Shown here: one piece after another, positions 50,504 to 53,689 of the stretch
How the letters are laid out: each line of letters starts with the position of its first letter
How positions within the stretch are numbered: position 1 is the stretch's first letter
Assembly: GCA_026702615.1 (NCBI GenBank)
Contig: JAPPBY010000033.1
Coordinates: 62,001 to 126,000 of the forward strand
DNA length: 64,000 nucleotides
From: Chloroflexota bacterium
Lineage (GTDB): Bacteria > Chloroflexota > Dehalococcoidia > Tepidiformales > Tepidiformaceae
Direction: 5' to 3'
Position numbers and translations under genes: made by a program
Notes under the pieces: generated by a model
What the model saw: the letters and a program-made list of their open reading frames with translations, nothing else
What the model was told of the DNA's origin: nothing
The model's database searches: none

Positions 50504-53500
50504 CTATGGCTGATTTCCCAGCACCTCTCGCGCCATGCCGAGGGGCACGCGCCAGAGGTAGTTGGCATTGATGAAGGAGCGCCCCCGCGTACGGCTGCGG
50601 TAGGTGATGGGCACCTCGGCGAGGCGCATCCCCTTGTGCAGCAGGTTGAGCGTGAGGACCTGGGCGTAGTTGTAGTCGTGGACGACCTCGGCGACGTTGA
50701 GCGCCTTTGCCGAGAAGGCCCTGAAGCCTGTCTGTCCGTCGGAGATGCGCCGGCCAGCCACGATGCTGAGCGCGAGCGTGAACACGCGGTTCCCCAGCGA
50801 GCGGAAGAGCCTGTGGCCCTCGCGGGTCCCACGGAAGCGGGAACCAAGGACGTAGTCGGCTTCGCCGCTCTCGATGGGCGCGAGCAGCGCCGGGATCTCG
50901 GCGGGGTCGTACTCAAGGTCGGCGTCGAGGTAGACGGCGGCGCGGGCGTCAAGCCCGCGGGCGGTTTCGAGGCCGGTCCGCAGGGCGGCTCCGAGGCCGC
51001 GGTTGACGCCGTGCCGGACGACGAGGTCAGCGCCCTCGCGTGCGGCGATCTCGGCGGTGGCGTCGGTCGAGCCGTCGTCCACGACGATGACGGCGGTATC
51101 GCCGAGCTCGCGCCGGGGGATGCGGGCGAGCACGTCGGGGAGCGCCTCGGCTTCGTTGTAGGCGGGGATGATGACCGCGAGTGGCCCCTGGCCCTGCTCC
51201 GGCACGCCTTCGGGGGTGAACAGCACCTGCCCGACCGACTGCGCGGGGGGCGCGACGCCAAGGTAGTAGGCGAGCGTTGGCGTGACATCGAGGAGGGTGC
51301 GCGGACCCTCCATGTGGGCCCCGACCGGCACTCCCTCGCCCCAGGCGATGAAGGGGACGCGCTTCTCCGGCTCGGTGAGGTGGCCGTGGCCTCCGATGCC
51401 CTTCCCCTGCCCGTGGTCGGAGATGACGATGACGGTGGCGCCTTCGAGGTAGCCCTCCTCGCGGCACCAGCCGAGGAACTCCTCGGTCAACCGGTCGGTT
51501 GCCTCGATCCGCTCCAGGTACTCGGGGTAGTAGCTCCCCCGGGCATGGCCCGTCTGGTCGACGGAGAGCGTTTGCAGCACGAGCAGGTCGGGGTCCTCGT
51601 CCTGGAGGACGGCCTTTGCGCGGGCGACGAGCGCGTCGTCGATCTCCTCATTCGGCGTGACCGCGGTGACGGTCTCGACGGTTTGCTCGCCAAAGGAATC
51701 GACCAGGTGGGCGATTCCGACCATGCGGCCGTGCAGGCCGCGCTCCCTGAGCGCGTCGAAGATGGAGTCGCAGTTCATGCCGAGGAAGGGGACGAAGTTG
51801 CTGCGCATGCCGTGCACGCGCGGCGGGGCGCCGGTGAGCATGGAGGTGAAGGCGGTGACGGTGCGCGCGGGGTAGACGGTGCGCATGTCGTCGCAGACGA
51901 GCCCTTCGGCGGCGAGGCGGTCGATGTAGGGCGTATGCGCCTCGGCGAGGCGGTCCGGGCGGCATCCATCGATGGCGACCACGATGAAACGCCGGGACAC
52001 GCGGGCGGTCTCGTTGCGAAGGTGGGTCGGCGCGAGCGGGTCGGGCGGCGCCCAGGTGAACCACCACTGGTGGGTGAGGACGGCGAGGACGGCGGCGCCA
52101 AGAATGAACCCCTCGACGGCCGCGAATGAGAGCGCTCCCGGATGCTCGACGAGGAAACCGGACAGCAGGACGAGGATGAGCACCTTCGGCACCTGCTCGA
52201 GGAAGTTGCCGCTCGTGGGGTCGGGGTTCTCCAGGACGAGCCGCCAGAAGCGGAAGCCGTTCGTCCAGGGAGTCCCGATGCGGAGGTGGTAGTAGATGCT
52301 CCCCCAGAGCACGACGGTGAAGACGAGGTAGAGCCCGAGGACGAGCCCGATCGCCACGGGGTCGACGAAGCGGAAAGCCGCAAGGCAGACCGCCAGGAGC
52401 ACCCAGAGGCCCGCCCGAAGGTGGAGCGGGAAGGCGTAGCGGTAGAACAGGACCAGGAGCGGCGCCAGGGCGGCGAGCGCGAGTCCCTGTCGCGCCCAGT
52501 AGCCGCCATCGGTGAGGTGGGGCAGACCGAGCAAGACGAGGGTCCCGACGACGAACACGGGCGTGAACGGCTTCCCCTCGTTGAGGACGTTCCAGAGACG
52601 CGCAGCGATGTTCTCGAAACGGGTGGCGGGCTTCGGGTCGTCGCGGCTGCCGCGCAGCCGCCCGAGCGTCGGCACGCCACCGAAGGCGAGTGGCGTCAGG
52701 AGCCCGCCAACGCCGAAGGCGTAGGCGAACTTGAGGCCGTGCGTGAGCACGGCGAGCGTGAGCGCTTCGCCGCCCGGCATCCCCTGCATCTGGAGGGCGG
52801 CGGTCATGCTCGCTTCGTAAACGCCGATGCCGCCGGGGGTGAGGTGGAAAACCTGGAAGAGGATGGTGAACGCCGTGACCGCCATGGCCGCCTGCAACGA
52901 GAGCTCGAAGCCGAGGGCATGTGCGGCCGCGTAGACAACGACCGACTCAAGGAGCCAGCTGGGCACCGTGAGGGCGAAGGCGGCGAGCACGGCGCGAGGC
53001 GAGAGGGCGCGGAGCGCCTCCCTGGAGCGCGTCCAGACCCGCTCCAGCACCTGGAAGCGACTCCATGTGGCATTGGTCGCCCGCAACCACAGCAGGGCAG
53101 CGGCCACGGCCGCGAGCAGGAGGGCGGGGGCAATCAGGACCGTGAGGCCGTCGACGCCGGCGGTGAGGGGGATGAGGGCGGCGGCGATGGCGAACAGGGC
53201 AGCGAAGTCGAGCAGGCGCGCTACGGCGGTGGAGACGGTTGCGTCGGTCGCATCGATGCCGGCGCGAGCGCCGAGATAGGGACGGAGGACCTCCCCGGCT
53301 TTCACGGGCAGGGCGTGGTTGGCGAAGAGGCTGGCGTGCAGGATGGAGAGCAGCCTGCCGCTGGTCACTCCCGACCCGGCACGCCCAAGAAGCCCCTTCC
53401 AGGCAACCGCCCGCAGCACGAACGCCGCTGCGTAGCCGCCCAGAAGGAGCAGCAGCAACTCAGGGCGGCGAACCACCTCGCCGAACCCCTTGATCAGCAG

Positions 53501-53689
53501 GGCCCCGTCGGCGATCTGGACCGCCGCCACGGCTGCCCCGGCCACCACGACAGCGGCTACGAGCCAGCGAAGGGGCTGGCCCCGCACGAGCGCGCCCAGG
53601 GATGTGTCCAAGCCGGAGGCGCCGGGGGAGGCAAGGCCCGCGAGGAGCCGTCGGGCTCCAGAGGTGGCGTCTAGCGCAAGTCCCAACAT
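50504..53689 (-). CDS. Triple fusion: UPF0104/LPG-synthase-like membrane domain, phosphodiesterase, GT2 glycosyltransferase
   Basis: A 1061-residue protein joining three parts that are usually separate. Residues ~45-335 form a multi-helix domain of the lysylphosphatidylglycerol-synthase-TM/AglD type ([19 protein letters not shown] near 120, then [18 protein letters not shown]). Residues ~370-555 add about five helices. Residues ~565-815 are a type I phosphodiesterase/nucleotide-pyrophosphatase-like domain: [12 protein letters not shown], the Thr nucleophile in [15 protein letters not shown], and [14 protein letters not shown]. Residues ~835-1061 are a dolichol-phosphate-mannose-synthase-like GT2 domain: [50 protein letters not shown]. 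Likely makes or remodels a polyprenyl-linked glycan. Promoter at 53712-53746. Confidence 0.85.

Follow-up and report, generated by a model that had tools for sequence, protein, structure and literature searches.

The 64,000-nucleotide stretch of DNA analysed here (the window) raises the question of what a single membrane chain uniting a flippase-like domain, a phosphodiesterase (PDE) and a GT2 glycosyltransferase could do for a bacterium, and on which substrate. The open reading frame starts with an ATG at 53689 and its stop codon ends at 50504, encoding one chain on the minus strand; a plus-strand reading of 50504-53689 was ruled out by stops in frame. The gene and its parts are as follows.

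50504-53689, minus strand: fusion protein of 1061 aa with flippase-like part, six-helix module, PDE and GT2 (from ORF, Pfam and orthologues)
52685-53563, minus strand: flippase-like part, residues 43-335 (PF03706; helix order and size like MprF subdomain 1)
52052-52567, minus strand: six-helix module, residues 375-546, matching no family and seen only inside the fusion
52184-52291, minus strand: conserved loop, predicted cytosolic, residues 467-502, RIG..TN..RF.R.V.ENPDxTSGN..EQ.PK
51212-51997, minus strand: PDE part of the alkaline-phosphatase superfamily, residues 565-826, predicted cytosolic
50519-51184, minus strand: GT2 part (DPMS/ArnC/GtrB-like), residues 836-1057, with no helix after it

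Pfam searches placed the flippase-like part in PF03706 (LPG_synthase_TM/UPF0104), with a match at residues 43-325 (E 1e-39) scoring 137.2 bits against the curated cut-off of 33.4. The PDE part gave a Phosphodiest match above cut-off (best stretch residues 569-631, E 2e-24), overlapped by a Sulfatase match at residues 585-811, also above cut-off, and YejM-type matches were also obtained. Its residues D574, T610, D711, H715, D758, H759 and H768/H770 were invariant across 14 orthologues and most of its key residues align with XaNPP; the part has the Thr nucleophile and metal-ligand Asp/His set that define type I phosphodiesterases (NPP). Likewise, the GT2 part matched Glycos_transf_2 above cut-off (residues 839-997, E 4e-27, 95.7 bits), with D871/D872 and D922/D924 invariant in the same 14 orthologues. 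The first-pass annotation, which described one 1061-residue chain of flippase-like, PDE and GT2 domains with intact key motifs, was therefore right on this point. The top folds for the GT2 part were DPMS (5mlz, Z 24.2), ArnC (Z 22.6) and GtrB (Z 20.3), so that it has a GT2 fold with polyprenyl-phosphate enzymes as closest relatives; the best NCBIfam matches (AglJ, DPhHxTase and PpgS) all fell below cut-off, which gives no assignment at equivalog level. These relatives lend support to the earlier proposal that sugar is loaded on polyprenyl phosphate, a step predicted here from the modelled fold. AglD of Haloferax volcanii and its UPF0104/COG0392 relatives likewise carry a DPMS-like GT2 and a PF03706 part in one chain (PMC5898192). 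However, AglD has its GT2 at the N-terminus and the flippase-like part at the C-terminus, whereas the fusion runs in reverse (flippase, six helices, PDE, GT2), is thus not of the AglD type, and differs further by the six-helix module and PDE in between and by its bacterial iron-uptake setting.

The window's own genome (2.87 Mb, Dehalococcoidia) carries one copy of the fusion. The four-part chain was found in 19 of 393 Dehalococcoidia genomes, spread over six families, with orthologues of approximately 1020-1075 residues, and the full chain occurs at 57-97% identity in independent assemblies; misassembly as its source is therefore ruled out. The split into two genes that would have spoken for misassembly was also looked for in close relatives, which have either the full fusion or no PDE, none of them with the PDE as a neighbouring gene. 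One contig with the fusion, L035 (CAMBFG010000011.1), is titled Dehalococcoides mccartyi and matches the G211 contig, and its species label looks doubtful.

Between the flippase-like part and the PDE lie about six helices (residues 375-546) that were absent from the first-pass account. Outside the fusion, this module was not seen in the 393 Dehalococcoidia genomes, and among 400 genomes drawn from Chloroflexota the window's own was the only one to have it. It gave no sequence match to solved structures, and the AlphaFold model is too weak here for a structural comparison with MprF (pLDDT 63.7 for the whole fusion, below 50 in parts of the middle module). Averaged insertion energies revealed no spanning segment past residue 546 and none at the PDE-GT2 boundary, where the lowest 19-residue insertion score (815-845) was +12.8 kcal/mol. 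For the six-helix module, K+R was counted over 12 divergent orthologues and came to 6.2 before helix a, to 0.9, 2.7, 0.0, 4.3 and 0.1 in the successive loops, and to 4.1 after helix f. Because no helix separates them and because these loop charges alternate, PDE and GT2 are predicted by two independent criteria to lie on the same, cytosolic side, contradicting the earlier placement of the PDE outside and the GT2 inside. The chain would accordingly resemble MprF. There, a flippase unit belonging to this family consists of TM1, TM2, TM4-6 and TM8, with one half-helix pair after TM2 and another after TM6; next come six helices more and finally an enzyme on the cytosolic side (PMC8131360). The charge pattern of the flippase part is compatible with this layout. 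In such an arrangement, the membrane would hold two units, a flippase of eight helices and a module of six, with the soluble enzymes on its cytosolic side. The resemblance has limits: the GNAT-type aminoacyl-PG synthase of MprF is missing from the fusion, which has PDE and GT2 instead, the MprF profile matched residues 148-314 only, far below cut-off, and MprF showed no detectable sequence match to the six-helix module.

The conserved loop at residues 467-502 is kept in every PDE-bearing chain and is degenerate or missing in chains without PDE; it thus goes with the PDE. Flippase-GT2 chains without PDE were found in Actinomycetota (L038-L042, also without the six-helix module) and in three Dehalococcoidia genomes (G056, G121 and G329). 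In G121 and G329, a hydrophobic stretch with a terminal RQW-type motif occupies the position of the six-helix module, to which its similarity is weak (hhalign E 0.004 and 0.06), and the conserved loop is degenerate. No separate PDE gene was detected near the PDE-less cores, with weak partial matches only elsewhere in those genomes. The GT2 tree with outgroup is compatible with one PDE gain and two losses, and a single clade of PDE-bearing chains was not rejected by the AU test (p 0.172). The PDE is dispensable, as a core of flippase and GT2 also occurs without it, together with the GT-C and iron partners described below.

A strict partner of the fusion is a neighbouring glycosyltransferase gene.

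46296-47792, plus strand: GT-C glycosyltransferase, 498 aa, with invariant D55-E56 after helix 1 (from co-occurrence and predicted fold)

All 19 genomes with the fusion have this gene, against 5 of the 374 without it (Fisher p 4e-28), and the association held when counted by genus (12/12 with the fusion vs 5/214, p 2e-16); three of the five fusion-less genomes that have it carry a PDE-less core. It usually adjoins the fusion and shares its locus wherever the contig is long enough. Pfam and HMMER searches against PDB returned nothing useful for the neighbour, but the best 50 PDB entries for its predicted model (pLDDT 70.7) were all GT-C enzymes or complexes containing one, with Pmt4 first (Z up to 20.7 over 313 residues), ArnT at Z 17.4 and arabinosyltransferases also matching. 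Going by this model, the product is a GT-C enzyme, PMT/ArnT-like. Enzymes of the GT-C class use lipid-linked sugars as donors. Loader glycosyltransferase, flippase and GT-C thus occur together in all 19 fusion genomes, the combination found in the three-component systems GtrA/GtrB/Gtr, ArnC-ArnD-ArnEF-ArnT and the pentofuranose systems, some of which have a cytosolic donor-editing enzyme of the kind proposed here for the PDE (PMC11127046). Unlike those, the fusion unites loader, flippase and putative editor in one chain, draws on another flippase family and likely has iron lipoproteins as acceptors. Elsewhere, the GT-C gene of G329, a genome with a PDE-less core, is split over two frames (L121, 5125-6874), either a decaying gene or an assembly error, and distant GT-C relatives at 28-38% identity (L122, L123 and L124, in G078 and G075) have no recognised fusion or iron genes nearby.

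Considering the genes around the fusion, iron uptake is the recurrent theme. The window contains the following neighbours.

49077-50468, minus strand: FEA1-related iron lipoprotein (NF038033), the next gene after the fusion with a gap of 35 nt
50343-50375, minus strand: 11-residue tag right after the lipobox of this lipoprotein
50019-50336, minus strand: Ser/Thr-Gly (plus His) repeat arm of the same lipoprotein, a putative glycan acceptor
48202-49014, minus strand: short nucleotide-sugar (UDP-glucose) dehydrogenase-like protein, 270 aa
45054-46079, minus strand: EfeO-like imelysin lipoprotein with a GEVRP tag (45975-45989) and a Ser/Thr arm
54339-54818, minus strand: bacterioferritin (TIGR00754, above cut-off)
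55106-56143, minus strand: FbpA-type ferric-iron-binding lipoprotein (FbpA-like, E 8e-64) without tag and without Ser/Thr arm

The FEA1-related lipoprotein scored 427.6 bits against a profile cut-off of 250, and the EfeO-like lipoprotein was borderline (269.5 against 270). Across families, the GT-C-like protein, the FbpA-type protein with its permease and ATPase, FEA1-related lipoproteins and the short sugar-nucleotide dehydrogenase recur. The permease and ATPase genes of a ferric-iron ABC transporter are present in most fusion loci with enough flank; beside the window's FbpA-type protein they were not found. Moreover, the neighbourhood recurs partly in Actinomycetota, where the loci include a FAD oxidoreductase gene, shared with G056 and G121, and an epimerase-like gene. 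Three further observations concern neighbouring reading frames. The dehydrogenase-like protein (48202-49014, minus strand) keeps the GGQCLPKD active-site motif; a C-terminal UDP-binding domain is missing. A short ORF (53743-54120, minus strand), which lies between bacterioferritin and the fusion, begins like ferrochelatase and has its C-terminal motif but not its central part (Pfam Ferrochelatase matched at profile positions 261-293 only); it is probably a decayed ferrochelatase remnant. An 832-aa ZnuA-type metal-binding protein (60203-62701, minus strand) has two ZnuA stretches. The long insert that parts them contains runs rich in Asp/Glu/His and weakly matches a beta-propeller (PQQ_2), so that the protein resembles a zinc-binding protein into which a second domain has been built.

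The lipoproteins of the locus share a feature that may single them out as substrates. Directly after the lipobox cysteine comes GE-D/V/Q-RP, then a brief hydrophobic run and, in most cases, Ser/Thr-Gly repeats. This GEDRP-type tag is common to unrelated families, namely FEA1-like, EfeO-like imelysin and cupredoxin-like proteins and the L089 lipoprotein, which has no Pfam match, and no fusion locus with enough flank is without a tagged lipoprotein. Searching the window's own genome for the GE[ADGV]RP codon pattern gave 30 occurrences, of which just two, both of the fusion locus, come after a lipobox; a loose lipobox-plus-tag DNA pattern stood at background level across 30 genomes and is uninformative. 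An FEA1 homologue in G136, which has neither fusion nor GT-C hit, is without tag and arm. Furthermore, of the two FEA1 copies in G329, the one in the locus has tag and arm and the off-locus copy has neither. In two Actinomycetota loci the core is paired with a P19-type iron lipoprotein, which has a Gly-Ser arm and a charged motif related to the tag. A search of the five Actinomycetota genomes for Fea1 gave no match, and neither did its controls. No Ser/Thr arm was seen in the binding proteins of the loci examined for it. The arm of the FEA1-related lipoprotein varies in length among close relatives and may therefore vary between strains. At 50019-50336, the Thr-Gly/Ser-Gly arm is encoded by tandem DNA repeats with periods of 6, 30, 54 and 60. 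Within the literature library searched, no paper came up on the fusion locus or on the GEDRP lipoprotein tag.

Taken together, we consider it an evenly balanced proposition, resting on sequence comparison, that the fusion produces a lipid-linked sugar donor within a single chain (flippase, GT2 and cytosolic PDE) and that its GT-C partner acts on tagged iron lipoproteins. By family and fold, the GT2 would load polyprenyl phosphate at the inner face with the sugar of a nucleotide sugar, and the flippase-like part, by its family, would carry the loaded lipid to the outer face, although for most stand-alone PF03706 proteins the literature offers, to our knowledge, no proof of flipping. Outside, the neighbouring GT-C would then pass the sugar on, with the Ser/Thr-rich arms of the iron lipoproteins of the same locus as the most likely acceptors and the GEDRP-type tag after the lipid-bearing cysteine as their putative mark. 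Of the earlier scheme of loading, translocation and a PDE acting outside, loading is thus supported and translocation plausible from the flippase family, and the outside PDE is contradicted. Instead, the PDE and the conserved loop of the six-helix module would probably edit the lipid-linked donor on the cytosolic side before export, the weakest step in the scheme and one weakly supported by analogy. ArnD carries out the donor-editing step in the ArnC-ArnD-ArnEF-ArnT system. In pentofuranose systems a cytosolic phosphatase domain, acting on phosphoribose, edits the donor before export (PMC11127046), and in gpgSDF a deacetylase is the editing enzyme (PMC12713373).

The fuller version of this proposal, in which the tag marks iron-uptake lipoproteins, a private GT-C glycosylates their Ser/Thr arms and one polypeptide makes, edits and flips the donor, would amount to dedicated O-glycosylation of iron-uptake lipoproteins; we put it forward tentatively, as a possibility with the chances somewhat against it. 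Actinobacteria offer a precedent in the O-mannosylation of lipoproteins by Ppm1/Pmt, where a DPMS-type GT2 likewise serves extracytoplasmic O-glycosylation near the lipoprotein N-terminus, as in C. glutamicum, and where Ppm1 of M. tuberculosis has the GT2 fused to a membrane enzyme (PMC3460810). Unlike the fusion, Ppm1/Pmt is a general system and has no fused flippase or PDE. We know of no shared tag for it. The conserved setting could also mean co-regulation under low iron and not glycosylation of the iron lipoproteins.

Arms are short in several orthologues (S+T 0.10-0.20 in L085, L087, L090 and L091), and the acceptor may therefore be something else, a polysaccharide or a glycolipid. If a polysaccharide, the donor sugar would end up in a cell-surface polymer that helps to hold iron, and the tag would serve sorting or partner binding. 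This fits the three-component systems, which decorate mostly polysaccharides (PMC11127046), and the GT-C model, which is matched also by ArnT and arabinosyltransferases; however, the conserved neighbourhood has recurrent iron lipoproteins and no recurrent polysaccharide assembly genes, and tag and arm track the locus even between the two FEA1 copies of G329, which makes the polysaccharide unlikely. If a glycolipid, the GT2 would glycosylate phosphatidylglycerol or diacylglycerol, the flippase part would export the product and the PDE would trim or recycle the head group, with no protein glycosylation involved. Such a route is compatible with the MprF-like order and the same-side arrangement, and UPF0104/MprF-like (PF03706-type) flippases do accompany lipid glycosylation in gpgSDF (PMC12713373) and hexSDF (PMC10128005), where glycosyltransferase, editing enzyme and flippase cooperate as proposed for the fusion. 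Those systems nevertheless consist of separate genes, with another glycosyltransferase class (GpgS is a GT4, PMC12713373), a deacetylase in place of a PDE and no GT-C partner, whereas the GT2 part of the fusion is closest to polyprenyl-phosphate enzymes and its strict partner belongs to a class that uses lipid-linked donors, so that we regard the glycolipid route, too, as improbable. The original model, with trimming or transfer by an outside PDE after translocation by a chain whose GT2 stays inside, is very hard to sustain: among the nearest free-standing PDE relatives L064 and L065 are secreted lipoproteins (L066 and L208 lack an evident signal peptide) and the TM-anchored relatives LtaS and YejM act outside, but the missing helix and the loop charges place both enzymes inside, and an outside PDE would take the GT2 with it, away from nucleotide sugars.

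In summary, the parts of the locus are familiar and their arrangement is new: it varies the scheme of lipid-linked donor, flippase and GT-C and is unusual in being linked to iron uptake. If dedicated lipoprotein O-glycosylation is confirmed, protein O-glycosylation would here serve a single physiological task, iron uptake, and a tag readable in the sequence would allow its substrates to be listed. The natural fusion of a UPF0104-type flippase with a donor synthase also gives a handle on the cargo of these very common flippase-like proteins. Moreover, the PDE comes with a conserved membrane loop retained only where the PDE is present, and the PDE with its six-helix partner would, if the editing role is correct, represent a new kind of donor-editing module.
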